From Ziziphus jujuba (Eukaryota > Streptophyta > Magnoliopsida > Rosales > Rhamnaceae), in contig NC_083384.1 of NCBI RefSeq assembly GCF_031755915.1, positions 26,950,001 through 27,014,000 on the forward strand: a stretch of 64,000 nt of DNA, given 5' to 3'. Below are positions 1,876-55,921 of this stretch, one piece after another (position 1 is the first letter of the stretch; each line of letters begins with the position of its first letter). Below the pieces are notes generated by a model. It did not search any database. It was given only the letters and a program-made list of their open reading frames with translations, and was not told where the DNA came from. Both the position numbers and the translations under genes were made by a program.

Positions 1876-2520
1876 CTAGGGACAGAAAGTAATATCATAG
1901 TCATTCCCATTTGGGCAAGAAAATAAGCTTGTAGAATCATCATATTGATAGCTATAAGCGTCGGGGCAGAGATCCTTGAAGAACTTGGAGTAACTTGTTG
2001 GCTCACAGATTTCCTGCTTGCAACAAAATTGATCGTTCCTAAATACGGTGCAAGGGCTGTTACAGCCTCCTGGATCTCTCAGCTCCATGGGGCACGGCCC
2101 ATTGATATCGGCTGTGCATTGGATACTCCGGCAACCATCCGACGTGGGCCTAAATTCCATAGGAATGTTAAACCCATTCACCAGCCAGATAGAATATGAA
2201 TCCGTGCTGTTTCGTCGAAATGTATATTCGGCGAAGGTGTAGGGAGCTCGACCATCGGCTTGGCATTGGAGGAGGCCATCGCAATCGCCACTTTCGCAAG
2301 TTCCGTTCTGCCCGTTGCCATCAAATTTGCAGTCGGTTCGGCCCCAAATGCGACCTTTCTTTTGAGATATGACGTTGAGAGTCCATGTATCACCTTGGTT
2401 GAGCTGCCTTCCGCCTTCAGGATTTGCTGCAGCCCACACAGTGTAGGAGCAGTTGTTGTGGATATGTATTCGTGCTGCGCATCAATATCACAAAAGCGAA
2501 AGCAAATATTTTTTAAGAAG
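1876..2520 (-). pseudogene. Thaumatin-like protein (PR-5), decayed copy 1
   Basis: The mature domain is open from about 2478 down to the TAG at 1876 and keeps all 16 cysteines of the family, starting at the [14 protein letters not shown] block. Two things argue against function. First, reading upstream in the same frame gives a signal-peptide-like leucine-rich stretch (2491-2520) broken by TGA at 2488-2490 and TGA at 2482-2484, with no in-frame ATG. Second, of the five acidic-cleft residues (Arg, Glu, three Asp), two Asp are replaced: the usual DISLVDGFN reads SIWLVNGFN. The TLP signature near the third to fifth cysteines is also altered (CESGDCDG for CETGDCGG). An alternative is a separate upstream signal-peptide exon joined at the AG near 2476, but I found no suitable exon within 500 bases. 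TLPs are secreted defence or stress proteins; this copy is probably silent. Confidence 0.75.
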
Positions 2521-3348
2521 CTTTTTTTTTTCTTTTTCTTTTTTTCCTTGAATTAAGTAGCTCTTACGTAATTAATTAAATTAATTAAAGAGAGATGAGA
2601 TTTATGGGAAATAATTTAATGAATAATACTTGATGGAGTTATCAAACTTGTTTCTAAAACGAAGTAATGTGGCATTATCTTATTAATTAGGTTCACTTTC
2701 TGTTATTTTTAGTTATGGTAATTTGTCAACTTCTAATAATAAATTGTCATCTAGTTTCGTATCCAAAATTTGATAAAAAATTTGATGGCGCGGGCATTAC
2801 TCTTAATCATACAACGTTCATTAAGCACTTTTACAAGTTCATTATAATATATATCACTGCTTTTTGGGTGAAGAAAGGGGACCGAAGGTCCAAAACAACT
2901 ATAAAACTATATCACGAGATGACGTAGTACCGATGCTCTCAGCTTTTGAACAAACTACAAACACCTTTTAGAGCTTTCTCCAAATAATTAATAGAAACCT
3001 AAACTACATAAGTGATTGAAATTAGCAAGGAAATCAATCACCTTGTTACATTCTCTATATGTGTGCTTCACCGAAGTATTAGCATTGTAAGTTAAAATAT
3101 GATTGCAGCTAACAATGAGCCAAAAACAAGGGGTCTGAATCTTCCATCCCCATTTTTCTATCTTCAACCCTATTCACTATTGACATATTTTTCCATTTAA
3201 TTTAAAATTATTAATAAAGAAAGAAAATAAATTAAGTGAAAATAAAATATAGCTTTTTAAGATGATTTGAGATCTATCACTGGTCAAATAGTAATGATGA
3301 TAGAAAAATGGGGACAAAAGTGATAAAGCACATGGTAGATAAATATCC
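2521..3348. other. AT-rich intergenic DNA
   Basis: No gene or clear element is seen. Contains a T-rich run at 2521-2547 that is antisense to the 5' side of the decayed TLP. Confidence 0.4.
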
Positions 3349-4560
3349 TTGTTGAGTCAGTTTTTGAGTATTGGTAGTTTTTATAATTCAATAGATTGAG
3401 TTGTAAGTGTGTTAGTCTTAATCTGTATTGGAAAATAAAGAATAAATTTCAGTTAGGAATGATAAGTGATTCAAAGGCTAACCTTGATTATCAAGTGGTT
3501 AAGCAAATTCTATTCCACACAATATTTTTTTATTATAAATTCAAGTTGACTTTTACATGTTTTACTTTGATTTATGCTTTGGGTGTTTTGCCTTTGTTTA
3601 AAATGATTTTTACAAAGTTTTTGAAAGTTAAAATACTCCATTTTGACCAAAGTTTGACCATCATTCAAACAATGGTATACATTGTTCGAACAATAGACTG
3701 CCATGTATCATTTTGTGAGTGGTGAATTTACTATTGTTTGAAAGACACATATAGTTGTTTGAACAATGGCCTACTTATCTGTCAATTTGTAACTTGTGTA
3801 TCTAGCATTCTTCGAGTAATGCATTGTGTTGTTCGAGCAATACCTGGACATGTGTCATTCCTATGTCTGCTACTTATCATTGTTTGAACAAAAACCTTTG
3901 TTATTGAAATAATCCTCCTTGTTTTATAAGAAACCCTAGTTCCTTTTGGGTTTCGTAGGAGAAAGATAGGTCTTAAAATCAGGAGAAAGATAGGTCTTAA
4001 AATCTCCATTGATAAGAGCTTAGTTTTACTATTAATGAGGAGTGCTAAAGACCCAATGAATTAAATTTAAACACTTTCTAATGATTTTCTTGATGATAGA
4101 TTAAACGTTCCTCAGCTTTTTTATGTTCTATTTATGATTTGACTTTGAGATTCTCGTATTTTCATTTTATCACATAGTGAGAGAATTAGATTTTTCCCAC
4201 CATTCAATCACCATAAACACTTTTCCTTTACCACATCAATGTTGATACTCTTTAAGATTTGTTCTCACAAAGTTTTGAGGAGCAGTACTCATGTGAGGAA
4301 GACCGTTAGGATGATGGTGGAGTTGTTACTTTTCGATGGAAGTCTAGAAGATGGCTGTTGGAGAACATTGTGAGGAGTGTTCGTTGCAACGAACTGGGAA
4401 TACAATTGTACTAGGATTAGAGATTGAGTCACACACTATATTAGTGGCTACTAATTTTTGATATTATCCACTTAGATTGTGTTTGCTGTATAATTTTCAT
4501 TTTTTAATGGATTTTTATATCAGAAGTGGTGACTAGAACCCGTGATCTTTCCAATCTAGG
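3349..4560 (+). repeat. Possible retroelement LTR remnant with repeated palindromic motif
   Basis: The region starts TGTTGAGTCAG, as plant LTRs often do. Between about 3660 and 3900 it carries at least five variants of the near-palindrome TTGTTCGAACAAT. A sequence ATATCAGAAGTGGTGAC near 4525 is only loosely like a primer-binding site. No coding sequence is convincing. I cannot place both ends, so the LTR assignment is tentative. Confidence 0.3.
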
Positions 4561-6583
4561 GTTTTCAAGTAAAAGTCTGTGTTAGATTTTAATTTATCTA
4601 TCGTTTAGATTTTTAGATTTACTGCCTTTATTCATCCATTGTGGGAGGACTAAGTCCTCGATTTTTGTATTTGCTATTTTATATATTTGCTGTGGGAGGA
4701 TTGAATATGAAAAAATTAGGCCTAAACTCTTGTAGGTTCCTTTAATATTCAATTGTAAAAAGAAAAATAAAATTTTGAAAAACCTATTCAACTTCCTTTC
4801 TAGGCATTTTCTAGGTTTTCAATCCTAAATACGCGCTATCAAGACTGATTCAAGGAAAGTGTGATACTGATAAGAGTTTATGATCAATATAATATTTACA
4901 AAGCACAAGTCGGTAGCAGAGACATAACCAATAGCATAACTACCATAGAGCATCTTAATTGTAGCTAATATGGTCACTTCTTATTATTAATCTTGTGTAT
5001 CTCAAGTATAAAAAGCTGATATAAACATATGATGTACTTGTGATTACTATTATTCAGAATAAAAGTTTAAACACATTAATTATTTATCTGTGTATTTCAT
5101 TATGGTGTCTGAGCAGGAAAAAGTAACAAAGCTTAACTTAAATGTGGCTTCTACAATTGAACCAAAATTGACAATCCAACCCTAAAAAAGAGGTATTAAA
5201 AAAAAAAAATTATATAACTAACAAAGGAAGGAAATTATGCTAGAAAAGAAAAGAAAAAAAATAGCATGTACTATTTTTAATTTGAACAAAATAAGGGCAA
5301 GAAATAGTAGAATAAAGAGAGAATGGGAACCAAGGAAATAAAGGCAATGTTCGGCAGAATTCTTGAAAAGTCAAAAACAACTTTTAAGGCTCAAAACAAC
5401 TTTAAGGCTCAAAAGTTACTACTAAGAATGTTTGAATAATTTTCAAAAAAAAATGTTTATAACCTTTTAAAGCACTTCTACCAAAGCTAATAAAAAGTAA
5501 TTTTTTTAAAAAATATTTCTGAACAAGTAAAAATAAAAGTAAAAGTAGAAGCTATGCTAAATAGGACCAAAGCATTGTTTGTCAGTGGAATAAGTGCTTT
5601 TTACTTATAAATGCTATATTTTCATTATATTTTTTTTAAAAATTAATGGTTAATTCATTTAAGCACCCGTTAAGATACTCATTAATCCAAAAACTCAACA
5701 AACCCTGAAAAATGAAATAGTTAACTCCATTTAGCCTTCATTTGGTATAACTTTGTTTATGGCCCAAAAGCTTTATACGAAGGTTAAAAGTTTTTTTTTT
5801 TTTTTTTTAAAAACAAATATAGGTGTTTGACTACTTGATTAATAAATATTTATTGACCAAATAAAAGTTTTTTAAAATTGACTTAGAAAAGCCTAAATTT
5901 TAAACTTCTTCCGAAAAAGCTGAAAATAGTTTTTTAAGGAAAATAAAGTTTTGCTTTAATGAATATTCTTTTTTCCAATGTATTCTTGAATTCTTTTAAA
6001 AAAATTACAAAACAACCTAAAATGTAACATTTTTATTTTCACCTAAATACCTAATAATTTTGGATAAAAAACTTCTTCTTTTTTTTTTTTTTTTAATTAT
6101 ATCTACTCACAAAAGATCTACCAACAAAACCTCCTTCTACAAACGTTATGCCAAAGATATGACAAAAACTAGGGAAAAAATCAATATTGGATAGCTTATT
6201 TTCCCCGATTAATTAAAAAAAAATTTCAAGTACAGGGTTACACGCTCAATGAATTAATCAACAAGTTTGACTGAAAGACAATCAACGTCATTTGGAATAA
6301 AGAAAAGAATATTAAGAAAATTAGAAAATCAAGAAGAGAGACTAATGGTGGTGGACAATAGTAAGCATCCATCAAACTACTTTTCAATTCTTTGACTTGC
6401 CGACGGAGAAAAATTTTTAAAAGTTGGAATAAATTCCTTTTTTAATTATCTTACGATTTTCTTATTAGAAAAACAACCAAAAAAAAAAAAAAAAAACCAG
6501 CAAAACATGAAACCGAAGTTTTTATTTTGCCAGGACCTAAATCTATTTTATATGACTTCTAAAATACTGCTTAGCCTTTTAAA

Positions 6584-6615
<32 letters not shown>

Positions 6616-6785
6616 TCCAAAGAATTAATGTTTTTATTTTTGGTAGAAGAGATTTTCAACATCCATAAAACGCTAAAATCAAAGCTATTAAAATGTAGTT
6701 TTTTTTTAAAAAAAAAAATTCTCATAAATAAAATAAGAAATTATAAAAGAAAAATAATAATAATAGAAACTGACCTCAATCATGG
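4561..6785. other. Intergenic DNA with MITE-like remnants
   Basis: Two direct copies of a GGCAATGTTCGGCAG-like motif (about 5347 and 5571) border a 225-base AT-rich block typical of worn MITEs. There are long A/T runs near 5790, 6080 and 6480 and an (AT)n tract at 6585-6613. No gene seen. Confidence 0.4.
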
Positions 6786-7466
6786 TTATAAAGTAATAGT
6801 ACCTTGTAAAATGTCATTTGGGCAGAAGACAACTTTATAGTCGGTCCCACCGGGACACGTAAACGTGGAGGACCGATCGTCTAAACCGAAACTGTAAGCA
6901 TCTGGGCAGCGATCCTTGAAAAATCTGGTGTAATTTGCAGGTCTTCCACAGCCGCCCTGGACGCAAGGATTAATACACCCTCCGGGTACCTTCCACTCGG
7001 TTGGGCAGTCATCGTTGATATTTGCTGCGCATGTGAGGCTGCGGGTACACTGTGGTGAGGTGGGACTGAATTCCATAGGAACATTGAAGCCGTCGACCAG
7101 TGATATATCGTAGAAGGCCGGTCCGGATTTATTTGCTTCGCCTAATCGATATTCAGCAAGTGTGGCAGGCGATTTACCACCATTTTGGCAATGGAGGACA
7201 CCCCCACAGTCACCGGTTTCGCATTTGCCATGACCCGATTCGTTGAATACGCAGTTGGTTCGAGCCCAGATGCGACCGGGTTTGTCGCCATCGACTCGAA
7301 GCGGCCATGATTCGCCTGGGCTAAGCCGCATGCCACCGCCGGGATAGGCTGCTGCCCAGACAACGAAGGGACATCTGTTTATGATATCGATACTGCCTGC
7401 TTTGGTTGATGAGATCACAAAGAGGAAACAGAGAATTTTGACAAGGCTCGCCTTTGAGAGACGCAT
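6786..7466 (-). CDS. Thaumatin-like protein (PR-5), copy 2, lacking the domain-II Cys-Cys pair
   Basis: A 226-residue open frame from ATG at 7466 to TAA at 6786, intronless. Residues 1-23 are a signal peptide with likely cleavage after TKA. The mature protein begins [16 protein letters not shown] and carries the TLP signature at residues 78-93 ([12 protein letters not shown]). The acidic cleft looks complete: Arg69, Glu105, Asp120, Asp125 and the later DD at 196-197. It differs from the usual 16-cysteine pattern. Between Cys168 (INPC) and Cys173 the loop is shortened by several residues and the adjacent Cys-Cys pair is gone, leaving 14 mature cysteines. Cys168 and Cys173 could form one bond instead of two. 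There are N-glycosylation sequons at 75, 112 and 178, and a nine-residue tail follows the final FCP. It is probably an apoplastic defence or stress protein. Whether it folds like its paralogues is inference. Confidence 0.85.
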   Translation of the reverse strand: MRLSKASLVKILCFLFVISSTKAGSIDIINRCPFVVWAAAYPGGGMRLSPGESWPLRVDGDKPGRIWARTNCVFNESGHGKCETGDCGGVLHCQNGGKSPATLAEYRLGEANKSGPAFYDISLVDGFNVPMEFSPTSPQCTRSLTCAANINDDCPTEWKVPGGCINPCVQGGCGRPANYTRFFKDRCPDAYSFGLDDRSSTFTCPGGTDYKVVFCPNDILQGTITL

Positions 7467-7506
7467 TTTAGGAGGAAGAGATGTTAATTTTAACTCGCTC
7501 TCATCG

Positions 7507-7566
7507 TTATTTTATGAAAAGGAATCATTTTCAAAGCCACGCCTGTTGCTGACAGACAAGTCAAAG
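7507..7566 (-). promoter_or_regulatory. Upstream region of TLP copy 2 with TATA-like box and W-box
   Basis: On the gene strand a CATAAAATAA TATA-like motif lies about 45-55 bases before the ATG. A TTTGACTTGTC motif at 7555-7566 contains the TTGAC W-box core bound by WRKY factors. The same eleven bases occur upstream of TLP copy 3. Function is inferred from motif and position only. Confidence 0.4.
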
Positions 7567-8058
7567 AATTCTACTTTCGATCTTTACCTTCTTCTTAGTC
7601 AGAGGAAAAAAAAAAAAAAATTAAAATAAAATAAAAATAATTGTTACTCAACAACAGCAGTTACTATTTTCTCAAGACTAAGAGCATCTTGTATTTGCCT
7701 TCGTATTGCCAAATTTTAACACAAAAATGGTTTTAGATCTCTCCAATGGCAAATTGTAAAACTTGCAAGTTGCATTTTTGAACCTAAATTTGATAAATAA
7801 AATACCATTTGGCAAACTTTGGTTATGGACCCAACTATAATAAAGTTTGTGGGTTCTATACTATTTATTAGTGTATTTTTCCTTTTTATTTGTTAAGAAA
7901 CAAGATTAAGTAGGACTCATACATCCAAACCTCTCAAACATTTGATTAAATACTTTTTTTTTTCTTTGCCAATGCTATATTTTACCATATGCCTTTGGAG
8001 AGAAAATTTTAAAAGTTGATATTAGTGTTGATATTTACCATTGAAGAGGTCATGTCAA
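7567..8058. other. Intergenic DNA, probable older repeat
   Basis: No gene seen. The text around 7685-7810 (CTCCAATGGCAAATTG and similar) and around 9060-9125 (TGCCAATTAAATTTTTGG) looks like two sides of an older repeat into which the next two elements were inserted. The ends are not resolved. Confidence 0.35.
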
Positions 8059-8583
8059 TAGGAATGTTAATTTGCCCAAACTGCGGTGTACCATCTCTAA
8101 CGGACGATTTTTCCCAAAAAAATTGGGATTGCGAGGCAGGCTCACCATAAAACCTTAAAGTCTGAATCGGGGATGGATCGGGACTGGGGAATAAAGAACT
8201 CGTCCCAAATCCGTCCCGTATATATTTATTTATTTTTTTATTTTATATATTTTGACTGTTATATTTTTTAAGGATGTATTTCATTATAATTATAAAATTT
8301 GACCTTAATGTATTTTATTTTATTTTTATTATATTTTAGTTATTTTATTTACATTTTATTCATAAAAAAAATGTTATATAAATTTCTCAAAATAAATTAT
8401 ATCAATTATAAAAAATAAATAAACGGGAAAAATTGCCCTGCCTCGTCCCCACTTCGAAAACCTCGTATCTGCCCCGCTTCTAAAAAAAGGGAAAAAAACC
8501 ACAGGGACGAGATGAAAAATTCTCCACAGAGACGAGGATGGAATTTTAAAAACTAGCTCCATCTTGTCCCATTGACATTCCTA
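8059..8583. mobile_element. hAT-type MITE with perfect 8 bp target duplication
   Basis: 525 bases starting TAGGAATGTTAAT and ending ATTGACATTCCTA, an inverted pair with one mismatch over 13 bases. It is flanked on both sides by CATGTCAA (8051-8058 and 8584-8591), the 8 bp duplication expected of hAT transposases. The interior has G-rich GGACGAG/CTCGTCC motifs near both ends and an AT-rich middle, with no transposase. It is a clean non-autonomous insertion. Confidence 0.85.
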
Positions 8584-8706
8584 CATGTCAAAGCCAATGT
8601 TTAGAAATACCACGGCAAAACAGCATTCGTTGAAGACGCTTAGAGCATATGCTAAAATGTGGATGCAATAGTGTTGGGTCTAGTCCCACTCCCTTGAAAT
8701 TTTAAC

Positions 8707-8987
8707 TGTAACAGTCCAGACCACCTGCATGCGATATTATCCGCTTAGGGTCCAGCCTGTACAGTTTTGTCAAAACGCGTATCAACAATTAGGGGTCCCA
8801 CCCCTTCACCTGCCAGTCCCACTGGCCCGGACCTCCCAGGCCCAATCGAAATACTATCCGCTTTGGAAGCTAGGTGGTGAGCCCAAATCTTCCCCTCATA
8901 GTTTTAAACGCATCTCAAGAGAAAAGTATCCGCACCCTCTTATAAGGCATGCTTCGTTCTCTTTTTCAACCGATATAGAACTTCACA
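8707..8987 (+). mobile_element. Small solo LTR with perfect 5 bp target duplication
   Basis: 281 bases beginning TGTAACAGTCCAGACC and ending AACTTCACA, so TG...CA. It is flanked by TTAAC at 8702-8706 and again at 8988-8992. The interior contains GATATTATCCGCTTAGG, AAACGCGTATC, TTATAAGGCATGCTTCG and CAACCGATATAG blocks, which I recognise as a repeat widespread in dicots. The ATCCGCTT block is present twice (about 8736 and 8857), so this copy has an internal duplication. No coding capacity. Confidence 0.75.
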
Positions 8988-8992
8988 TTAAC

Positions 8993-9932
8993 AGTTAGAA
9001 AAATTTAAAATTAAAAATTACATTATTTAATTGTATGGATTCATAGATTTTATTACTTCTAAAAAATGCCAATTAAATTTTTGGTGCTAAGTGTTCCAAA
9101 AATGCAATTGGTATTTTTGGCAATGTGTCATCGAGAAGCAAAAAAAACTTATTTATTCTCTATTTTTGCATTGTAATGGCAAATTGCTATGCCACTGAAG
9201 ATGCGTTAAGTTTGAGACAAAATAAAGGCATATCCTATATCGTTTTGGAAAACGATTTTTCATTTCAGAAAGTCAAAAATGACAAAACAAATGTGTCCGG
9301 TTGCCTTATTTCAAATTTAGAATTTGAAAAAAGTTGAAAATATTCTCTAAAATATTAGTAAATTCTGAAAAGAAAACTGAAAACAAATATATAAAAAGAT
9401 ATGGATAATATTTATTATTTTAAATAATTTTTTTTATTTATATAGATATATACGATCTTTAATATATATATATATATATATCAAACACAAATATAGATAA
9501 TAATAACCATTTTTAAAAATAAATATTTTCTTTACAATATATATATATATATATATATGATACTTACCATTTATCAAATTTAATTTAATCATTTTCATTC
9601 TCACAAAATATTTTTGACTATACTACCCAACATGTTTTTAAATTTTAAAAATAATTTTACAAGATTGATTTATAAAAATTGTTTTGAAAAACGAACAAAC
9701 CCTAAAAGTCCTTATTATATAATTTAAGTGATTATCTTATACTTTATGAAATTCATGAATTTGTTTTTAGGAAATATAGTTTGGAGCCGGATCCTTTGTC
9801 CACTCTTGGTTGTCTCCAAACTAGTCCTACCAACCAATCAATGCCACATCATTTTAAATTTTTTCTCATCTTTTAATGTTAGTTTTTTTTTTTTTTGTCT
9901 ATCTTTTTTTTTTAATTTTCATTTTTTTGGAT
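8993..9932. other. AT-rich intergenic DNA
   Basis: No gene seen. (AT)n tracts lie at about 9464-9481 and 9538-9558. Around 9783-9845 is a GC-richer block that could be a MITE end but has no partner I could find. Confidence 0.4.
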
Positions 9933-13388: not shown

Positions 13389-16300
13389 TGTCAAGACCCA
13401 TCAAAGATCCCTCACTGGAATCCTAGACAAGCCCTGACACTAGGAAAACCCTACCAGACCCTCTAATGGAAAATCCGGCAGCACCTCCTCTAAGGGATGG
13501 ACTTACCACAAAATTCCCTGTATAGAAAACACACTTCTAACAATATCTCCTTATTTCTCCCACCTTACCACAAATTATTCCACAAGTTTGCAGCATTTCA
13601 AATAAATAAACAGGGAACCAGTGCAATATTATAAATAAATATCCAATGTAGTATATAGAGCATTATAAGATACATCTAAATATAAAATTAATACAATAAA
13701 AACTGGAAGGAAATAATACAAGATGGAAGGAAAAGAAAGGAGAACTCCTTAGAATTTGGCAATGAACCAACACATCGAGCTCGTCCCGGATGGTCAACAT
13801 GTACTAACCTGGGACTAGGGGAACGAATTTCAAAACATGAGATGGTAATCATCTTAATGAGTGATCCAATCTTCTATATAATAATAATAGTAATAATAAT
13901 CATAATACACTTGATTAATTAATAATAAATAAATAATAATTAGTTGAAAATAATGTCTTCACTCAAAACCCTAACAATTCACTTCGTTGGAAAAGTTCCC
14001 CTTTAAAAACATTTTCACAAAATCCCATATTTGTATGCCCCAAAAATCAAGAAATTATTAATTAAATAAATTGCAAATAAAATACAATAAATTAAAGATT
14101 TAAAATTTATAATGAGAAATAAAATAATTTTAATAACAATTATTAAATTTTAAATTAAATATCATAAATAAAATAAAACAAAATCACAATAGAATTTAGA
14201 CTAGAAATAATCAAGGAAATATTAAAATTAATTGTATACCTCATTTTGAAATAGTTAATGAAATAGAATAAAATTCATGTTAAAATCTCAAGTTTAAATA
14301 ATTAATGCCAACATGGTAAAATGAAATTTCTAAAACACTAATTTAAAATAAATATTAAAATCATAATAAAATGCATTGTACACATCAATTTAAAATAAAT
14401 GATAAAATATAATTTAAAGCATCGATTAAAATAATGTTGAACACAATTAACCACATTTTTAAAGATAAATAAGATCTTAAAACATTAATTTGAAATGAAT
14501 GGTAAAAATACGAATAAAATCCATTTTAAATCATCAAATCAATTTAAATAATAAAATCATGGTAAATACATTTTTAAAACATTAATCCGAATAAACAATG
14601 AAAACATAATTAAATACATTTTAATTTTAAATACTCTTTAAAATATTATTATTTTGGAAATCGTATCAGGAAACCATTTGATACACCAAATTATCTACAA
14701 GTGGCATCCGACGGTACTCAGTGTCCCAAACACCACCTGATAGGGATATTAAAGAGAGAAATCGGCATACAGTCGCATGTCGTCCAACAGTGCCACTGTT
14801 AACAGTCATCCTGGCCATGTAGGGGGACGACTGATGCTCATTGTGCATTATACCCTGCCTACTCTTGGTCCGATGACAACCACAATACAACCCTATAAAT
14901 AAACCTATAAGCTAATCACATCCACCTGCGCGCTAATCACATCCACCTGCGCGCTAATCACATTCATTTGGCGCTAATCATATCCATATATATAGTACAG
15001 AACACCAATACTGTATAGTGCATCTAAAAACCAATAGAATTATAAATTTTCCAAATTTCAAAATCTCATAATACCATTGGACTTAAATACCTCTTTTCAA
15101 GTTTATATTTCTTTAAACCATTATCGTAAATACATCACGTTAGAATCCATTCTTACAATCTCATTGATGCAAATAAACCAAGTTTCCAACGGCATAAAAT
15201 CAATCCATAATATTTAAATGCATAAAAATATTTTTGAAGCATAATACTTTAAAATAAATATTTTTCTTCAAATCCTTAAAATTAAGCTGTACCAAAAATG
15301 ATATATAAAAAAAACTATATAAAATTCATATGCAATTAAATTCATATAAACACCATCATAAAACCAACACTAAATTTAACAGTAATTTAAATAAAACTTT
15401 AAACCATGAAATATATGGCAACAAAACATATATGAAAAATCATCATGAAGTGGCAATATAAATTTAGATGGAAATTCTCTTAAATATCAAATATATAAAA
15501 CATATTGTTCAAATATTTAATTACGCAATATTCCAACAATAAAATTCAATAATTATTAACAAAATCTCAAATCCATAAAATTCTTAAAATCATAATATTT
15601 CTTAATGCACAAATATTATTAATTCATTCAATTTTGGCATCAAAATTCCAAATATACATTTACTAAATATTCAATACATGAAATATAATTTCCAACTATA
15701 TAATCAACTCAAAACATATACAATTTATCAACCCAAAATAATTTTGAAAGTGGATCACTCACCTCGAGCACGCATATTAACCAAGATCCGCCACGAGTCA
15801 ATTTCACAACTCACATGTCCTCCTAAAACATCAAAGTTACACAAAACCAATTAAATTAATATTTTAATCGGATAATTTATACAATTATACCAAGGGATTT
15901 AACATAAACATTATCCAAAATTCATAAACAATATATCGAATCGAAGCTCACAATTCAAGGATTACGGATTGAGTCTTACCTCTCGGAGATCGAACCCGTG
16001 GTGGCCACAATCTCTCCGGAAAGGTCTCAGGTTTAATATACTTAAATCTCTTAATCCGTCAAGAATTGGGGGAAAAGGACTTTAGATTTGGATTCAGCGA
16101 GGTCAAATTAGTAGAAAAGAGTAGAAGATGTCATTGGAAACTCGTTGGAGATGGATTTTCCGGCTAGCCACTGTGGCCATCGGAATTCGCCATCTCCCGC
16201 GGAGCATCCGGTAGCCACTGGATGTGAAATTAGGTGGGGAGGTAGATCGAAGGATGAGTAATCCAATGGGATTGGTGGTGTCGAAAAAGGAGATATGGTT

Positions 16301-17064
16301 TGGAAGAAATCGACCGGAGAAGGAAACAGCACCTCCAATGGAAAAAGCCCTGATCTGAGCGCGTCATCGGCAATCTGACCACGGTTTTTGGCTGGCCGGC
16401 CGATTTTGAGGGGTGGGTCAAGATGGTGCCGGGCGTGTAGGCCATAGGTGGCCGGAAGGTGGTCAACAGCGTAAGGTTGGTCCTCCATCTCTTTCTCTTT
16501 TGTCTCTCCTCTTTCTCCTTCTCTCCCCTCTCTCTTCCTCCACCTCAGCCCCTCTTCACCCAATCAAAATGCCTCCCATGGGTGCCACTGTGCACTCATG
16601 GGTTGTTTGGATTTTTGACATATTGCATCACTGTTCACACACTCACAGATCGATGAATAGTAATTACTATCTCGGAAAGGATTCACAAGTCAGTAACTTT
16701 TCAAACAACATGTCCAAATTAAGCGTGCCGCTAGTCTATGAACTCGTATCACCAGGCACTTCACAACCATATATGAGTCAATCAAATCCAAATTTTGCAA
16801 GAATAAAAAGTCAACTTGGTACCCTCGGATAGTTCGGACCTCAACTTGTTTTACTCATAACTTTCAAACTGTAGCTCTGTTTTAAACGTACTACTAGTCT
16901 ATGGACTCAGGTTGATGCATATTTCGCAACGATGCCTCGGTCAACCTAGAATTCTATCTGAATCAAAAATTCAAAATTTAAGCCCTCCCGGTCAACGACG
17001 TGCAACCCGGTCAACTTCGATCAACTTGAGAAAATTTCAATGTATTTCGGGATGAAGTGTTACA
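13389..17064 (+). mobile_element. Long solo LTR, family T copy 1 (Ty3/gypsy type)
   Basis: Begins TGTCAAGACCCATC and ends GATGAAGTGTTACA, the TG...CA form. It is flanked by CTTAG (13,384-13,388) and CTTAA (17,065-17,069), a target duplication with one change. It shares start, end and many interior blocks with the copies at 37,971 and 61,539: CCCTAGACAAGCCCTGA near the start, a CACCTCGAGCACGC block at about 15,762, and the TCAACTT-rich 3' part. At 3.7 kb with no internal domain and no primer site at its end, it fits a solo LTR of a long-LTR gypsy lineage (Del/Tekay-like). The lineage is inferred from length and ends. Open frames inside it (about 16,108-16,832) are not genes. Confidence 0.65.
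14911..14990. repeat. 21-base tandem repeat inside the LTR
   Basis: GCTAATCACATCCACCTGCGC repeats here about four times with the last units degenerate. Copy 3 has about three units (62,580-62,640) and copy 2 one unit (about 38,998-39,012). Confidence 0.7.
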
Positions 17065-19585
17065 CTTAAGGCTAGATCATCGATGATGTATAGAGATCGG
17101 ATCATTTTTGCTGGCAGCCACTATTGCTTTGCCGGTTGATTTCTCTTTCTCAACCACCCCCTTGCCTCACTGCCATAACCATTGAGTTACGCACTTCATA
17201 GCCATTCTTTTCCTAAAATTTCACAACCAGTGGTTGATAGATGCATCGACGCCGGAGGACTTTGCTAAGGACTGTAATAGGTCGCCAATTCCATAGTTCA
17301 GACCAGTTTCCAACCTAATCACCACCTTTACCCACCAAATTTGACCCCCTTGAGTCCAAATCGAAGGTTCTATTTGTCCAATTCGAGCTAGCTTGTGAGA
17401 TCCAGGAGCATCAAGTTGCCCATATCTTCATTGCCAGATCTCGACCATCACCAACCAGATCTTAAACAGTTATATCCTGATTTGCGATCCTTACATTCCA
17501 AGCTTCATTTTGGTATATAGGTCATCAATTTTAGTTAAATTTTATGCTATCTCCCTGGGTAAATTATGTATAAAATACCTCGATTAAAATATTATTTTAA
17601 TGGATATTATGTTCTATTGATATTTTAGATACCCGTGTAAATCGAGGGACTGATCCTATGAAGGATCGAGAGTGATCCGCATTTTCAGGTGAGTGGTTCA
17701 TTTTCCAAATTTATTTTTGGATAATCAATTTTGTGTAAATTGTATTGTTTAAATTCCTACAAAATTATGTGATGCGTTTTAGATTAAAGAAAAATTATTA
17801 TTGATTTGCTTTATGCAAAATAATGTTGTTTTATATTTAATTTTTTTGTAAATTGAAATTTGGGTTTGAAAAATCAAATTATTCACATACAAATATGTGT
17901 GTGTGTGTGTGTGTGTGTTTATTGTGGAAAGGAATATTTTTATAAAATTTGGTGGATTTCAGATTTTGGTTTAAATCAAAATAAGGAATTTTATGTGGTT
18001 TGGAAAAAAATTTATTAAAATCCAATATTATTTATAAAAATTTGGTGTTATGTTGTATTGCCAAATTTTATGTTTTAGTTGCTCTATACAATACTGATAT
18101 TCTATACTATATATTATTACTTAGCACCAGGTATTTATTTAGCCATCATGTGGAAGATAAGGGTGAAAGAGTTGGCAAATATTTTGCACAGTAAGCATTA
18201 TCCACCCCCATGGCTGCAAGATGGAAGGTTATTAGAATCGGTGCCTTAGAATGCCAAGATGCTCGATTGTAAGTATCTCTTTTAGCTCCCTACCAAAGGG
18301 GTACTTGGAATGCCGAATACCTCCTGACACTACTGGTATATAGTATGGTGTGTCAGATTAGCATCTATTTCATATTTTTAACAGAAAGATGTTTTTAAAA
18401 TATATTTTATTTACTTAAATTATTTTTTTAAAAATTATTTAATTGCTATTTTATAAGTTACTAAAATTGTTGAATTTAACTTTATTATACTATACTATTT
18501 TATTTTATTTATCTTATATTATTTTATTTTCTTTTGTTTTAATTCATTTTATGGCTATTTTGGCTCTTTTAAATTTTAAATATATTTTGTTTCAAAATAA
18601 ATATTTGCTTTTAAAATTATTTCCAATGTTATTTTATTTTATTTTATTTTATTCATATTTTTATATATACTATTTTAATTTTTGGGGAATATAAAATAAC
18701 AGGTTTTGTGAAAAATGACTTTATAAAGGGAAACTTTTCAAACTGAATGAATTAATGAGGGTTTTGTGAGAAAATTTTATTTGTAAATAATTTATTAAAT
18801 TGGTTAATTTTAAACTTCTAATTTATTTACTTATTCATCCATCTATTAATTTATTTATTTATTTATTTTTCATTAACTATCCTTATTTTTAATTTGTAGT
18901 ACTAAGGTGGGTATGATTGGCATCTTATTATTTTTTTTGTTTTTAAATCCATTTCCCCTAAACAGGTGATTATTGAACGTTGATCATTCAGGGTGCGAGC
19001 TCGTTTCTTTCCTGCTATTGTCGTGTTTGGAGAAGAACATTCCTCCTTTTCATTTTGTAATATTACTGTTATTATTTCCTCTGTATTTATGATATTTTTT
19101 GTTCTTGAACTAAAATCTTAGCATGCTCTAGTACTAAATGTTGAGATATAGTAATTTTTTAAATTATTGTTGTTGTGCATTTATAAATTATTAATATGGT
19201 GACTATTCTCTAGTTATTTATTATTGAAGTGTTGTATATTACGGATAAATTTTGTAATAAGATGGAAGAAATAAGATAATATATTATTAGAATATCTTTT
19301 TGTGTAGTGATTTTTGGGACATATTCAAAAAGAGATGCTATTGTATTTTCTTAGGAAGATTCAAAGAGATTTCTTCTAGTTGGGGGAAGGATCCTGAGAT
19401 AATTACATTTGAAATAATTTCAAATCTTAACTAAAACCAACCGAATTAAACAAGACAGAGGAAAATGATGAGGAAATCAGGGAGAAAGAGGAAGGATCCA
19501 TCATACTATTCAATTCTTTTGACTGGTTTTGATAAAATTAATAATATAGTTGTTGAATATATATTTTCTCAAAAAACGCATCCGA
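17065..19585 (-). repeat. Inverted remnant of a family T LTR plus AT-rich DNA
   Basis: At 17,640-17,700 the text GAGTGATCCGC...GGTGAGTGG is the reverse of the CACTCACCTCGAGCACGC block of family T LTRs. 18,300-18,365 is the reverse of their GATGCACC...ACCAGTGGC block. So a worn LTR lies here in the opposite orientation. There is a (GT)n run at 17,898-17,919. 18,400-18,900 is extremely AT-rich. No gene seen. Confidence 0.5.

Positions 19586-21379: not shown

Positions 21380-21424
<45 letters not shown>
20835..21424. other. Intergenic DNA ending in a 38-base poly-A tract
   Basis: No gene seen. An uninterrupted A run at 21,383-21,420 directly precedes the left inverted repeat of the next element. 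Confidence 0.5.
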
Positions 21425-21425
<1 letters not shown>

Positions 21426-21798
21426 AATTAATTACACTGCACACCTTTAAAAAAAATTTTAATTACAACCAAATATCCTTCAATCCCTACCGTTACCACA
21501 TTAATGTTGAAGTTGACAAAAAAGGACATAATAATCTTAATGTTAAAGTTGACAAAAAAGGACATAATAATCATTTGATACAACTAAAATAAATAAATAA
21601 ATAATAGTGATAATAGAACTATATATATAACAAACATTAATAAAGGCAAACACATAATAAATATAGCCCTTCTATTACTGTTCGGAATAGAGTAAAGACT
21701 AATCATATTTACGCACAGTACTGCTCACTCTCTTTTTTGACTGTAAAATCTTTATAACATCCAAAAAAAAAAAAAAAAAAAAAAACTCAAATAAAGCT

Positions 21799-21916
21799 CA
21801 AGATTGGTTTGTTGTGTACACAACCAAAACCCACCGCCACAACCAAAATCCAGTTTTCAAGATTGGTTTGTTGTGTACACAAACAAAACCCACCGCCACA
21901 ATCAAAATCCAGTTTT
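21799..21916 (+). repeat. 59-base tandem duplication in the leader of the captured gene
   Basis: Two 59-base units (21,799-21,857 and 21,858-21,916), each starting CAAGATTGGTTTGTTGTG and ending CCAGTTTT, differ at only a few bases. They sit just before the likely ATG at 21,938. Confidence 0.9.
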
Positions 21917-21937
21917 TCTTTTTTCCCACAAAAATCC

Positions 21938-22537
21938 ATGGAAGAAAAAGAGAAGAAGAAGAAGATCAACAACCAAAACAAGAAGCAAAAACACCAGCAC
22001 CCAAATGACCAAACCACAAAAACTTCAGATTTCTCTTTCAAACCCAGCTCTGATGTAAAAGGTATTCGTTTCGGCGGGCAATTCATTGTTAAATCCTTCA
22101 CGATCCGTCGTGCTAGGCCATTAGAACTCCTTCAACTCCTTTCTTTCCCACCCACAACAAGTACCACCATACCCACACCCACACCCACACCCACCAACAA
22201 CACCAACACCAACACCATAACCAACAATTACAGTGGCAATAAATCAAACACCAAGAACGCAAACAACCACAAGCTTCTGTTCCCTTCAACCACAGCTTTC
22301 TTGCCCACAAACTTCACAATCTTGGCTCACCATGTTTGGCGCACACTCACTCTCAGGCTGGGAACCAAGAAATCCAAAGTCCTTCTCTTCATGTTCGAAA
22401 CCGAAAGCATGAAGGTCTCGGTGGATGGGGTTTGCCCATCGGAGATTCCGCTAGGCGAAGTGAACAAGAGGCCGGTCAGGGGCTTGACTGGGTGCGAGAT
22501 GGCTCGGTTCAAGTTTAGAAAAGGGTGTGTCAAATGA
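21938..22537 (+). CDS. Captured, C-terminally truncated gene of an unnamed plant family
   Basis: 199 residues from ATG at 21,938 to TGA at 22,537. Open sequence continues upstream, but the only ATG in this frame that follows the duplicated leader is here. Residues 1-40 are Lys/Asn/Gln-rich. A structured block VKGIRFGGQFIVKSFTIRRA follows, then a Thr/Pro/Asn low-complexity linker, and a second structured block ends in TGCEMARFKFRKGC. I recall similar sequences as an uncharacterised plant family in which the protein continues well past RKGC; this is memory, not a search. The last codons (Val, Lys, stop) lie in the right inverted repeat of the surrounding element, so the frame is cut by the element edge. 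Function unknown; it may be expressed as a truncated protein or be inert. Confidence 0.55.
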   Translation: MEEKEKKKKINNQNKKQKHQHPNDQTTKTSDFSFKPSSDVKGIRFGGQFIVKSFTIRRARPLELLQLLSFPPTTSTTIPTPTPTPTNNTNTNTITNNYSGNKSNTKNANNHKLLFPSTTAFLPTNFTILAHHVWRTLTLRLGTKKSKVLLFMFETESMKVSVDGVCPSEIPLGEVNKRPVRGLTGCEMARFKFRKGCVK

Positions 22538-22665
22538 CTATTATGCCCCTCCTTCGTCAACTTTTAACATCAATTTGATAACGGTAGGGATTGATTTGTA
22601 ATTATTACATCATCAGGATTTCGGTTATAATTAAAAAAACATTGAGGGAGTTCAGTATAATTAAC

Positions 22666-23447
22666 CCAAAAGAAAATAATGAGTTCCAAATAATTTTCTG
22701 TTAATTTTTTTATTTTTTTTTGTGATAAGATACATCCAAATGCAGATTTATCAAGAATAATTTAGAAAATCCAATAAATTTCAAAATTATTTTTTGTATC
22801 ACTAAAATGTTAATAATGAACGATGAAAATAATATCTATCATATGTATACTTTGTTCAAACAATCAATCTAGCTTCCATTGTATGATTCATGTTGGAAAA
22901 AAAAAAAAATTGATCTAAAACCATGTTAAATGACCATTTTGAGGCTTCATTCTCAATGGGTCCCACTTGGTATTATGGAAGATCGAAATGGCTCGGGTTC
23001 TCCTCCATGAGATCTGTGAAACGGGATATAAATATAATATGCTCAAAAATGAAAAATTATATTTTCTGTTTTTTATTTTCAAAATATTATTTTTAAAATA
23101 GAGAATAAAAATTTATTTTTATTTGTATTATGAAAACAAAGGGTATTTAACCAATAATATTTGAAAACAGTTTTTAAAATAAAAAAAACATGTTTGGCTA
23201 AATGATTTTTAAAATTTTTTTAGACAATTTTTATTTTTATTTTTTGCACATACAAGTTTTTTTTTTTTCATACAAAAAACCTTGTACATAATATATAGCT
23301 ATAAAATATTTAAATATATATATATATATATAAAATATTAATTCATTCACATATTATTGAATTACATATATAATATATGATATATATTAAAATATAATAC
23401 AAATTTCTTTTTTAGTTGAACTTTTTTTTTTCAATTATTATTGATTC
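22666..23447. other. AT-rich intergenic DNA
   Basis: No gene seen. (AT)n at about 23,317-23,333. Confidence 0.4.
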
Positions 23448-24963
23448 CAAGATTCAAAAAATCGATATCGTGAAAATATCGAAAGTTTAAAATACGAAAA
23501 TTTTTATAGAAATATTGAAAAATATCGAATATCGATAAAAAATTATAAACAATGATGGAAATTTGTTTTAAAAAATATAAATTTTTATTGAAACCTTAGA
23601 ATTAGCTTATTTAATATATCAATTATCAAATTAAATATAAAACTTGCTAAAATATTGAATAAATGTTATATTCTTCTTAGTGAATTGATTTATAATAAGC
23701 ATTAATGACCATAAATGAATTGTTATTAATAAAAATATATTAAAAAATACATATATGATAAAATTATTTATTAACTAAAATATATAAAACAATTATTACA
23801 ATTACATTGTAGCTCATAAATGTCATTTTAATACCACATAGAACTTTTGAGTGATTGAAAATTATCGGTTTTTTCCTCATTTTGATTTTGAGATGTGAAA
23901 TGTGAGTAGTGTTGAAAAGATGTATCTCCCTGATAATTTTGCATAGAATTATTAATATGGCAATCATATGGATCTTGCATTATTGGTTGACTATGTGCAT
24001 AACTATTACTTTCTAATGGTTGAGTTTGATATGGTACCCATGAGTTGCTACTTGATGACATTCCATAAATATCCATTAAACAAAAGCTATGAAAATGACT
24101 TCCAACCCTCGTAGATCCAAAATTCATAGAAATCGAATATTTTTCTTCTTGTGACACCTCCATTATAGATTTCTCTTTACATTTATAATCTTTTCCAACA
24201 GTACCGAATTCTTGATTTGCATATCTACTCTCATGATCTCCATCTGGTGTTGCATGTGTGTAATATTGTTCACCAGTAAATGGACTTAATCCAACTTCTC
24301 GACTTGATGATTTCCTTTGGCCACTACCTCTTCTAACTTCTTCAAAAATTAAAAAAAAAAAAGACTCGTGAATTGTCAGGAATTTTTTTATTTTTCAGAC
24401 AAACATTATTATTTCATCATTTATTTATCCACATTTATAAAACAGATATTCTCGATAACAAAATTTGACAGGTTAAAAAATATAATCTACAATCTTTGTA
24501 TTTTTGCTTTATCGATATTCAATAAGTAGAACTTATTAATGTTATTCAATTCAATTCATTCTATTTTGCTTATATCACTAAATATCTAAATAGCAATTAA
24601 AGGATAAAAAAATTATCAATGAAATTAATTTGATAAAAAGTTTTACTAAATATTAATAATATTTATGAATTTTTTAAAAAAAATTAAAAAATTCTCTTGA
24701 TATTTTCGAAATTTCAATGGAAATTTCATGGAAGTTTCAAAAATTTCTATGAAAATTATAGATTTTTTAACCAAATCATTAAGGATTTGATGTGGATATT
24801 TTACGGAAAGTTTCATGGAAATTTTAGCGAAATTTCAAAAATTTCAATGGATATTATAGAAATTGTATCCATTTTCATTTCGAACCTAAATTTTATTTCG
24901 ACCCTCTCAAACAGTGGAAATATCAACAAAATTTCGAAGAAATATCGGATATTTTAAACCTTG
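23448..24963 (-). mobile_element. hAT-like element, family B, copy 1
   Basis: The ends are inverted: CAAGATTCAAAAAATCGATA on the left and TATTTTAAACCTTG on the right. Subterminal DNA holds many ATATCGAT and AAATTTC(C)ATGGAAATTTC motifs. It carries one coding exon on the minus strand (23,828-24,338). A homologous copy lies at 52,545-53,924 in the same orientation. hAT membership is inferred from what I recall of similar plant transposase tails; no clean 8 bp duplication is visible. Confidence 0.55.
23828..24338 (-). pseudogene. C-terminal exon of a transposase-like protein
   Basis: Open from an AG acceptor near 24,339 (EVRRGSGQRKSSSREVGLSP) through TGEQYYTHATPDGDHE and KEKSIMEVSQEEK to the stop at 23,828, about 170 residues. 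It is rich in Ser, Gln, Asn and Tyr. No DNA-binding or catalytic domain is included. It looks like the last exon of a hAT-type transposase, the rest of which is absent from this copy. The second copy at 52.8-53.4 kb is the same exon with stops. Confidence 0.5.
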
Positions 24964-33179: not shown

Positions 33180-33612
33180 TAGCGTTGAGTTTTTAACCTA
33201 AAATCTCGAATAGGAAGGCCCTATTTTATGTTTTTTAACCTCATATGTAGGTTCTATTTTTAAGTTTTTAACCTAAGACCTCTGATAGAAGGCTTGTTTT
33301 TTTTTTTTTTTTTTTTTTGGAACTTCTTATATATGTTGTTGAGTACTAAACTCGGAGGTTATGGGCGGTAGGCATTGAGCATTCATTTCTTTTATACTTT
33401 TTCCGAAACACTTTCTCTCACATGCGTGTGGCCTTATTTTTTAGTTTTTAATCTAAGACCTTCAATAGAAGGCTTGCTTTTATTGGATTTGTTTTTGGGT
33501 TCTTATATATGTTGTTGAGTTTTCAACCCAAAGATTATGGGAGGTGAGCGTTGGGCATTCATTGAGTTTTCAACCCAAAGATTATGGGAGGTGAGCGTTG
33601 GGCATTCATTTC

Positions 33613-33644
<32 letters not shown>

Positions 33645-34080
33645 TTCTCCCTATTTTTGAGTTTTTAACCTAAGATCTCTAATAGAAAGCTTGGTTATTT
33701 TGGACTTCTTTTTGGGTGGTTATATTTATTATTGAGTTGTGAACCCAGAGATTATGGGAGGTCTGCTAGAAGGTTTGCTTTTTTTGGACTTCTTTTTGGG
33801 TGTTTATATTTGTTATTGAGTTGTGAACCCAGAGATTATGGGAGGTCTGCTAGAAGGGTTGCTGTTTTTGGGTTTCTTTTTAGGCATTTATATGTGTTCT
33901 TGAGTTTTGGACCCAGAGATTATGGGAGGTGGGCATTGGACATTCATTTCTTTTATATTTTTTTACCTTTTAGATTAGAGGCTCTGATAGAAGGCTTTTT
34001 TTTTCTTTTCTTTTTTTTTTTTTTTAACTTCTTTTTAGATTTTTATATGTGTTGTTGAGTTTTGAATCCATAATCTCTTG
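33180..34080. repeat. Degenerate minisatellite-like array
   Basis: The motif GAACCCAGAGATTATGGGAG and variants recurs with period about 85-190 bases at roughly 33,345, 33,530, 33,575, 33,740, 33,825 and 33,910. Within it 33,517-33,563 and 33,564-33,610 are identical 47-base tandem units. An open frame over 33,732-34,058 translates the repeat itself (CEPRDYGRSARR twice) and is not a gene. Confidence 0.75.
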
Positions 34081-34441: not shown

Positions 34442-35119
34442 TCAAGGACAGAAGATAACCTTGTAGTTAGTTCCTCCAGGACAAGTAAAAGTGCTCGTTG
34501 CATCATCTTTAGGATAGCTATAAGCGTCAGGGCAACGATCCTTGAAAAACTTCGAGTATCTCGTAGGCCCACAGCTCCCGGAGTTGCAGCAGTACTGATC
34601 AGTCTTGAACACCGTACATGGGTTGTTGCAGCCGCCCGGTGCCCTCAACTCATTTGGGCACTGTCCATTGATATCGGCCGTGCATCTAATCACCTTGCTG
34701 CATCCACCTGACGTAGGGCTGAACTCCATCGGAACGTTGAACCCGTCGACGAGCGAGATATCAATGAAATCCAAGTTGTTGAACTGGTTGAGTGCGTATT
34801 CTGCCAGAGTGTTCGGAGGCTGGCCATAGGCTTGGCATTGTAGGATTCCCCCACAGTCACCGGTCTCGCATTTTCCCCGTCCGGCTCCGTCGAAGTTGCA
34901 TTTGGTTCGAGCCCAAATGCGAGCCTGTGTTGTGCCGGCTTTCACATTGATGGACCAAGTTTGGCCTCTGTCGAGCTTCCGGCCACCTCCAGGGATGGCG
35001 GCAGCCCAAACCGTGAAGGGACAGTTGTTTCGGATGTCGAAAACGGCTGCATCTGCCGAGGGAAAGGCGAGAGTGAAGAGAAGGAAGAAGAAAATGGAGA
35101 GGTTTTGAAAGAAGCTCAT
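34442..35119 (-). CDS. Thaumatin-like protein (PR-5), copy 3, intact
   Basis: A 225-residue intronless frame from ATG at 35,119 to the stop at 34,442. Signal peptide 1-24 (hydrophobic [10 protein letters not shown], cleavage after ADA). The mature protein is about 201 residues, the usual size for PR-5. All 16 cysteines are present: 33, 74, 84, 89, 95, 140, 146, 154, 164, 168, 177, 178, 183, 196, 213 and 224. The TLP signature is at 80-95 ([12 protein letters not shown]). The acidic cleft is complete (Arg71, Glu107, Asp120, Asp125 and Asp205/206). The protein ends at FCP with no C-terminal propeptide, which points to secretion to the apoplast rather than the vacuole. Related proteins bind fungal wall glucans or permeabilise hyphae and respond to pathogens and osmotic stress; that role is family knowledge. 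It is closest within the window to copy 4. Confidence 0.95.
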
Positions 35120-35211
35120 TTTGATTGGTAAATGGTTTGGATTATTTATTTTATTTTATTTTATTTTTTTTGGGTAGTAAAATGGTTTGGATAAATTGGT
35201 AATGGCTACGA

Positions 35212-37970: not shown

Positions 37971-40838
37971 TGTCAGGACCCGTCCAAAATTTTTCCCCGA
38001 AACCCTAGACAAGCCCTGATCCCAGGGAAATACCACCGAACCTTCCAACGGAAAATCCGGCAGCAACTCCCCTAAGGGTAAGACTTACCAAAAATTTCCT
38101 GCACTGAAAATACACTTCTAAAAACATCCCCTTATTCCTCCCACGTTACTACAAATTGATTTTCACAAATTTTCAGCACTTCAAAGAATAACAGCAACTC
38201 AGTGCATAAAAAAAAAAAAAAAAAAACTACATGTCCAATACAGTATACAGAGCATTATACAAATGAATATGGAATTTATACAATGACAGATAAAGAAGTA
38301 ATACAAGATGGAGAGGAAAAAAGGAAGAAATACTTCTTGGACTTTCGGCAACGAACTGAGACGTTGGGCTCGTCCCAGACAATCAACGTCTCCCAACCTG
38401 GACCTAGGGGAACGGAATTTAAAAACGTGAGATGCTAATTATCTCAGTGAGTGACCCTATCTACTGAACACTTTTAATATTTATAATATATCAATGAAAG
38501 GAATTTAATTAATATCAACAATTAAATAAATAATAATAACACTTGAAGTAATATTATCTCTCAAAACCCTCACTATTCACTCCGTTGGAAATGTTCCCCT
38601 TTTAAAACATTTTCACAAAACCCGATATTCGTACTTCCCGAAAATCAAGGGACCAAACAATTTAATAAACAACAAATAAATAATAAATACCCCAAATATA
38701 ATTAAAATGTAATAAATTATAATAAATAATTTTTGAACACTTTGGGGTTTGAAATTTCCATCCAAAAACTTATACTTGACGCACCACACCATATACCAGT
38801 GATGCCCTCCGATACCCAGCGTCCCGAGCACCGACTGGCGGGGAGATTAAAGAGAGAAACTTGCAAACGGTACTTCGGCGTCCCGACAGTACAGCTGCTG
38901 AAACTGTCATCCCGGCCAAGGAGGGGGGCAGCTGATGCGCAATATATAAGACTTGCCTGCCCTCGGTCCAATGGCAACTCACGGGAGACATAATACTTGC
39001 GCGCTAACCATATATACAACCAGAACACCAATACTGTATGAGTGCGTCTAAAACAATATTAAATTAATTATAACCGTACCGTTCTTTCCAAAATTACCGT
39101 GGAAAATATACCAATTTTCACATTTACCATCCCACATATTTTCATATAACAACCCGGTACGAAAACATCGATAACAGTAAAACAATAATTTTTCTGGTAA
39201 TACGAGGTTCGACAAATAAAATACCATGGGCATAATTATAAAAATTAAACCACCACTTTAAACAAATATTTTCATAAAATATTTAAACCAATTATGCCCA
39301 AAAATAATATGAAACCCAGACACAATTAATTACTGAAAATACTTGCTCATGTGTAATAAATAGCATTTAATCACAATAAAACAATAATTGGGAATTTCTT
39401 AATGACCCCAGATTCCCGTTTAGCACCAATGGGTAAATATATATAAAATAATATTTTTTTTCCGATTATATTTAAAATACACCACATGAGCATAAATTCC
39501 AGATATCAAATTAACACGACATAAATATAATTAATTACCCCAAAAATATTTTTAAAGGTGGATCACTTACCTCGAGCACGCAATTAAACCACGATCCACC
39601 ATAGGATCGATTCCACGACTCACCCGTGCTCCTAGAACACAATTCACACACAGTCAAATAAATTAATATTTTATTCGGATAAATAATACCCGGTACCCGG
39701 GGGGTCAAACACAAACGTTATCCAAAATTGACAAATTATATGTCTATGGAAAGCTTGTGAGATGAGGATCACATTACCGACCTCCATTGGGCCCAATTCG
39801 ACCTGCGGTGGCTGGAATTTGGCCGGAAAGTTTCGGCCAAATTTAAACTTGAGGGATCTCTCAAACGGTGGGGATTTTGGGCAATCTAACCTCAGAAATG
39901 GACTCAGAGGGATCGAAAATGGTGGAATAGAGGTATGGGTTGAGCTGGGTTGGTCGGAAAATACAAGAAAAGAGGAGAGAGAAAATTTCCGACCGGCGAC
40001 TTCTCCGGCCCGATCTGGGCGCGTCCGGCAGCCGGTGACCGTGAAATTTTGCGGCCGAGCTTGCCTCCTCCCTCTACTCATCACTGGCTGGCGCGTGTAG
40101 CAAGGTGGTGGCCGGAAACAAAGAAACGGCGACAACCCGAGAGGAAGGAGAGGAAAGGAAGAAGAAGGAGGAGAAAGAAATTCCCCCCCCCCCCCCTCTC
40201 TTTTTTTCCCCACGTGGGGAGAAGAAAAGGAAAAGAAAAAGAAAAAGAAAAAGGAGAATAAAATAAAATAAAAATAATTAAATAATATTAAAAATAATAT
40301 TATTATATAAAATAACAATAAAATAATATGATATTAAACATGGTTGACATGTGGCATCTCAACATGGTGACACATGGTCACATTTATCAAGTCACACGTG
40401 GTACATCGTTACACGTTTTAAAATAATATTAAAATAATACAATATTTGAAAAACTCTACAGGTCCATAACTTTCAAACCACATGTCCAAATCGGACGTGC
40501 CGCTAGTCTACGGACTCGTATCGACTAGTACTTCACAACCATGCATGAGTCAAAGCTCAACTTTGCATGAATAAAAAGTCAACTCTGGCACCCCTTGGAC
40601 AGTTTGGACCTCAACTTGTTTTGCTCATAACTTTCAAACCCTAGCTCCGTTTTCATTGTGCTACTAGTTTACGAACTCATGCCAATGTGTACTTCGTAAC
40701 AGTACCTCAGTCAACCTATAATTCCAACCGGAACAAAAAGTTAACTTTTGACCCCTTCGGTCAACGGTCAAAGTCAAAGTCAACGGTCAACGATAAAAGT
40801 TGAAAAACTTCCGCTGTACTTTGGGACGGGGTGTTACA
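37971..40838 (+). mobile_element. Long solo LTR, family T copy 2
   Basis: Begins TGTCAGGACCCGTCC and ends GGGACGGGGTGTTACA. CCAA stands on both sides (ACCAA before, CCAAA after), a 4-5 bp target duplication. 2,868 bases with no internal domain. It is very close to copy 3 over long stretches, e.g. the CTCGAGCACGCAATTAAACC block at 39,572 versus 63,237. Open frames such as 39,671-40,318 come from purine-rich and GC-rich LTR sequence. It contains a 14-base C run (40,183-40,196). Confidence 0.7.
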
Positions 40839-55852: not shown

Positions 55853-55912
55853 TGATAAACAGGGATGAGAGAGTGTGAAAATTTTTATGGTTATGGGGAA
55901 GATGAAGTAGGA

Positions 55913-55921
55913 CTTATATAG
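55913..55921 (-). promoter_or_regulatory. TATA box of TLP copy 4
   Basis: CTATATAAG on the gene strand, about 61-69 bases before the ATG. This implies a short leader of about 30-35 bases. Confidence 0.65.

Follow-up and report, generated by a model that had tools for sequence, protein, structure and literature searches.

The window, a 64,000-nucleotide stretch of Ziziphus jujuba DNA on contig C6 (26950001–27014000), very probably contains a non-autonomous Mutator-like element (Pack-MULE) whose captured segment of a host DUF7851 gene is most likely a neutral passenger. The element occupies positions 21423–22667 (1,245 bp) and is sequentially composed of a left terminal inverted repeat, 0.94 kb of host-derived DNA, and a right terminal inverted repeat. 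The two arms have the following features.

21423–21587, + strand: left terminal inverted repeat, aligned to the right arm; outer end GGAAATTAATTACACTG, inner end at about 21585
21501–21572, + strand: tandem duplication of 36 bp within the left arm, its two units being 97% alike
22526–22667, + strand: right terminal inverted repeat, outer end GTATAATTAACCC; gives the last two codons and the stop of the open frame

The left and right arms are 165 and 142 bp in length, respectively, and represent the long terminal inverted repeats that characterize Pack-MULEs. They are imperfect and gapped, with 98 identities over 121 paired positions in a global alignment of 21423–21587 with the reverse complement of 22526–22667. 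Their best local score is 59; with one arm shuffled in three-base blocks, 500 controls reach 32 at most. The first-pass annotation had described two imperfect inverted arms around a host-like fragment, and this description agrees with the alignment. It had placed the element at 21425–22665; the element is confirmed, and both ends lie two bases further out. Further copies of the arms are absent from the window at E ≤ 1e-3. The 36-base duplication, also proposed earlier, is real. The window left arm matches that of a related copy on contig C9, where the 36-bp unit is single. Another related copy, on contig C1, has a right-arm duplication of its own, of roughly 75–90 bp, and a shortened left arm.

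The DNA between the arms is a fragment of a host gene together with its leader.

21587–22528, + strand: host DNA taken up by the element, with some 300 bases that precede the ATG in the parent and then the first 196 parental codons
21620–21630, + strand: TATA-like stretch TATATATATAA, a candidate core promoter identified by eye; the parent contains a similar stretch
21798–21915, + strand: 59-bp tandem duplication in the leader, 97%; absent from the parent and the C9 and C1 copies
21938–22537, + strand: open frame encoding a truncated DUF7851 protein of 199 residues; stop codon TGA at 22535–22537
22526–22528, + strand: right junction, TGT (the Cys codon of RKGC), a 3-bp overlap common to gene and arm

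The 199-residue product matches the Pfam family DUF7851 (PF25236) with an E-value of 5.5e-67, and the best-matching stretch ends at profile position 139 of 189. The element was previously thought to lack a transposase. In keeping with this, a tblastn search with the transposase of a family relative, L044, yields no match in the window at E ≤ 1e-3, leaving an internal host gene fragment and no transposase between the arms, as in other Pack-MULEs. The 59-base leader duplication noted before is genuine. About 15 bp that are common to the parent and the C9 and C1 copies are missing from the window copy just before it. The duplication thus postdates capture and is private to the window copy.

A protein search of the genome (394-Mb assembly) with the 199-residue product identifies four places. 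The 943-bp insert, used as a DNA query, recovers the same four long matches and 26 short ones of 30–56 bp, all of which fall within query positions 158–229, in or around a poly(A) stretch. A parental locus had been expected in the same genome and is found on contig C8, where 887 bp match the window insert (C8:11950396–11951282). The match ends at the end of the query (22527), and its extension to 22528 rests on alignment. The parent is an arm-free, single-frame DUF7851 gene of 256 residues that continues for 60 residues past RKGC and shares its upstream DNA and leader with the window copy. No arm is found in its 3.6-kb locus, in which the best arm match spans 21 bp (E = 0.005). The element that carries the highest-scoring non-Pack arm (83%; L008/L010, C8:11739928–11740564) is located about 210 kb from the parent on the same contig, a nearness that may be coincidental.

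Two truncated sister copies, on C9 (196 residues) and C1 (188 residues), possess both the arms and the same right junction. The window insert is 88–90% identical to the C9 copy, the C1 copy, and the parent. The flanks of the three Pack copies are unrelated, the only cross-locus match at E ≤ 1e-3 being 52 bp at 75% identity (E = 2.6e-4). The shared right junction and the unrelated flanks together argue for one capture followed by transposition, which has carried the captured gene to three or more sites in the chromosomes. The products of the C9 and C1 copies are letter-identical to the Z. jujuba database proteins LOC125424240 and LOC107434317, respectively; the list of protein database matches names no source for the window-copy product.

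The right junction lies within the coding sequence. In the window copy, RKGC ends with the codon TGT at 22526–22528, which is followed by GTC AAA TGA. After TGT, the window and C9 copies continue with the arm sequence GTCAAATGACTATTATG and the C1 copy with GTCGAATGACTATTATG, while the parent has ATAACTTTC. For the 37 non-Pack arm matches in the genome, the first aligned query base is 6 or 8 in 35 cases (window position 22526 or 22528), 9 in one, and 12 in one. These start positions place the inner end of the arm at 22526–22528, a TGT overlap, and therefore identify V, K, and the stop as arm sequence. The last two codons and the stop are arm-derived in all three Pack copies. The earlier proposal that the frame runs through a conserved block to RKGC and takes its last codons and stop from the arm is thus correct. 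Alignment had been expected to locate the exact breakpoints and does so on the right side. The left junction is located, but not to the base, because it falls inside a AAATAAATAAAT run common to the parent. With its left junction in this repeat and its right junction in the TGT overlap, the frame enters the right terminal repeat and stops (V-K-stop).

Homologous proteins do not end at this position. The comparison comprised 117 homologues, namely the best 120 of 413 protein matches minus the products of the three copies themselves. The motif [RK]KGC is present in 112 of them and absent from five. All 112 motif-bearing homologues extend 25–67 residues beyond it (median 60), and none ends there, ruling out an ordinary orthologue that terminates at RKGC. 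The first-pass annotation had read the junction as capture and had named arm-free orthologues ending at RKGC as evidence to the contrary. None is seen among the 112, and the capture reading is sustained by the arm-free parent, which runs 60 residues past RKGC, and by the two sisters with the same right junction.

A lack of further arm copies in the genome had also been named as contrary evidence, but the arms are not unique and belong to a dispersed set of repeats. The right arm has at least 41 matches in the genome, itself included; this is a lower bound (54 candidates, 40 scored) in which the two arms of one element are counted apart. Three of the 41 are the Pack copies, one is a further fragment within the C1 copy's arm, and 37 are others. 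The 30 arm loci designated L005–L034 comprise the three Pack copies and 27 others, which include 11 distinct elements with both arms inverted. This two-arm count refers to second arms within reach of 1.5-kb flanks, and the second arm of L033 is partial.

Three arms, L043, L044, and L045, were followed inward by up to 10 kb. L044 is an 8.2-kb element (1646–9842) whose arms lie 8,197 bp apart. Between the arms, one frame contains PF10551 (E = 5.6e-16) and PF00872, and a second frame contains PF03108 at 25.4 bits (cut-off 25). The right arm of L044 is 81% identical to that of the window element, and its left arm is seen only as a 69-base match at 76%. L043 contains the right arm and a 400-residue match that is 73.5% identical to the L044 transposase; a second arm was not seen, and the two scanned frames contain no Pfam family. 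On its far side, L045 carries 50 bases that match the arm in inverted orientation; by eye, none of its ORFs of at least 110 residues resembles a transposase frame of this kind. A MURA-type MULE transposase is thus associated with the arm family in one two-armed element, L044, and in L043, in which one arm is seen. Since L044 shares the arms and combines PF10551 with a perfect 10-bp target duplication, the family is, on this evidence, Mutator-like, and the window element is a Pack-MULE.

Several other features surround the element in the window. Four thaumatin-family frames (PF00314), all on the − strand, lie at 1876–2481, 6786–7511, 34442–35155, and 55169–55924, and the Pack-MULE sits between the second and the third. 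Repeat blocks at 23430–24963 and 52526–53924 are about 83% identical, and the first starts less than 1 kb from the Pack-MULE; they represent either another dispersed repeat or a segmental duplication. Three related multi-kilobase blocks, at 13389–17065, 37971–40839, and 61539–64000, share pieces of 67–78% identity in the same order. Frames like theirs occur, by eye, in L044 and L045, and the blocks are therefore probably a dispersed repeat family. In addition, positions 33515–33930 contain tandem arrays of 47-bp and 84-bp units, the latter spanned by an open frame.

The ends of the window element are flanked by a candidate target duplication.

21414–21422, + strand: left flank AAAAAAAGA, the last bases of a 39-A run; one candidate half, matching at 7 of 9 positions
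22668–22676, + strand: right flank AAAAGAAAA, candidate other half

For five elements, target duplications were scored, with 20,000 offsets drawn at random from the flanks of the element concerned as the control. The window copy has 7/9 (0.010) or 9/11 (0.0023) matching positions in poly(A). Either count is within the tolerance of two mismatches quoted in the available text of a study of MULEs (PMC4858842), and the duplication is uninformative because it lies at the end of the 39-A run. The C9 copy has 9/9 (no random offset as good) and the C1 copy 9/10 (0.001); both lie in TAA/TTA microsatellites, in which slippage, like chance, favors such matches. Outside the Pack copies, L044 has a 10/10 duplication, TATATGAATA, equaled by no random offset, and L019 one of 10/10 (0.00015). 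Of seven two-arm loci compared by eye (L008, L012, L015, L023, L024, L025, and L028), only L023 looks duplicated, and its insertion site seems to be that of L019; L021, L029, and L033, with at least one terminus not in view, were left out. All three Pack copies reside in simple AT repeats (TAA, TTA, and poly-A; window 21382–21420, L002 on C9, and L004 on C1), which reflects either target preference or repeat growth after insertion.

Several observations count against the explanation favored here: a clean target duplication is lacking at the window copy, those of the C9 and C1 copies fall in microsatellites, and only one of the seven loci compared by eye looks duplicated; a second arm is seen in L044 as no more than 69 bases and in L043 not at all; L044 has an arm only 81% like that of the window element, with its transposase in two separate frames; and all three copies keep an open frame of 188–199 residues. 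The last point bears on what the captured gene does, if anything. One alternative is that the insert is a regulatory passenger, whose copies give rise to transcripts and small RNAs acting on the C8 parent gene. The identity of 88–90% to the parent and the other two copies speaks for such a role, and fold-back of similar MULE arms has been proposed as a small-RNA source, according to the accessible part of that study (PMC4858842). The arms of the window copy are, however, imperfect and gapped, and we regard this alternative as unlikely.

A second alternative, which we consider quite unlikely, is that the truncated gene is functional, that is, a new chimera that has an upstream region of its own, encodes a DUF7851 protein shortened at the C-terminus, and is kept by selection. 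Besides the three open frames and the presence of the C9 and C1 products in the database, it is favored by Ka/Ks values of 0.25–0.31 between the copies and the parent. In addition, the stem from the parent to the copies carries 9 nonsynonymous (N) and 12 synonymous (S) changes, fewer replacements than neutral (p = 0.007). However, the parent's own constraint enters every copy–parent comparison, including this branch. Ks is 0.12–0.16 between copies and parent and 0.027–0.088 between copies; neither Ks nor the N:S counts include alignment columns with gaps or the block that the C1 copy reads out of frame. Among the copies, there are 17 N and 10 S changes against a neutral expectation of 71% N (p = 0.39), a comparison of low power owing to the few changes. 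Drift would leave the copies free of stops with a probability of 0.49 (0.28 if the stem is counted as well).

The replaced residues also argue against function. Several lie at positions that are 97–100% conserved in the 117 homologues, for example A132V, H134R, and I179V in all three copies, G139R in the window copy, and F190L in the C1 copy. In the C1 copy, deletions of 1 and 14 nucleotides jointly restore the frame, which could speak for function, but 13 out-of-frame residues replace 18 of a conserved block. The restored frame was weighed as a sign of selection; by our estimate, a random pair of deletions would keep the frame about one-third of the time. The changes among the copies fit a neutral passenger, with low power, and weak selection is compatible with so few of them. 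The window copy shares three sites with the C1 copy and one with the C9 copy, weak evidence that the C9 copy may have branched first.

A third alternative is that the element acts as a mobile expression cassette, composed of an upstream region, a leader, and most of a frame stopped by the transposon end, and that truncated DUF7851 proteins made at the three loci regulate the full-length parent or interfere with it; we consider this very unlikely. Finally, that a segmental or retro-duplicated gene fragment lies between two independent MITE insertions is exceedingly improbable. In its favor, the arms are only 81% alike (98/121) and the parent coding frame is uninterrupted, so that absent introns do not exclude a retrocopy; against it, the arms and right junction are common to three copies whose flanks are not, about 300 bp of upstream DNA are included while the 3′ end of the gene is missing, the sister-copy target duplications lie outside the arms, and the junction shared at three unrelated sites in effect refutes two independent MITEs.

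For a Pack-MULE with a neutral passenger, the following course can be proposed. Roughly 0.9 kb, copied as DNA from the host DUF7851 gene, would have filled the space between two MULE ends. This stretch takes in some 300 bp ahead of the ATG, including the leader, and then the coding sequence as far as codon 196 of 256. Microhomology-guided gap filling may have been the route. Animal Pack-TIR breakpoints carry microhomology with a median of 2 bp, read as template switching during gap filling in the part of the report consulted (PMC8277862), and we infer that, by analogy, this model may extend to the jujube element. Capture would have occurred once, before the three insertions, with transposase presumably supplied in trans by relatives such as L044. 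The truncated gene could still be transcribed from the captured upstream region.

The case is unusually complete in that a single genome contains the source gene, its three truncated products, the junctions, and a relative that encodes a transposase. Public databases list two of the copies among ordinary jujube proteins, which illustrates how gene-family counts can be inflated by Pack elements. Should any copy be expressed, the set would allow one to test directly whether a new protein can arise from a stop codon supplied by a repeat.

A literature search by name found no work on DUF7851. A search for Pack-MULE and jujube returned general papers only, and the matches listed for Ziziphus jujuba and Mutator do not name jujube. 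In the available text on Pack-MULEs of rice and other plants (PMC13317346, PMC8903248), these elements likewise combine MULE terminal repeats, a captured host fragment, and several copies with the lack of a transposase. The present element differs from them in its jujube host and in keeping the upstream region, the leader, and 77% of a single-frame gene contiguous. Its one contiguous open frame ends in the repeat. The tomato element PM-ZIBP, as far as its description was accessible (PMC3310237), is likewise a multi-copy dicot Pack-MULE with a gene fragment and terminal-repeat duplications. PM-ZIBP has tandem terminal repeats, whereas the duplications in jujube are partial and copy-specific (36 bp in the window left arm and about 75–90 bp in the C1 right arm). 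The MULE-derived putative genes of Oryza, in the portion of the study available (PMC4858842), are also non-autonomous MULEs with an ORF of at least 50 residues that has a start and a stop. Unlike them, the jujube copies are known from sequence alone, and selection on them is not supported. The mechanism is already known, and the jujube element is a clear new example of a well-known process.
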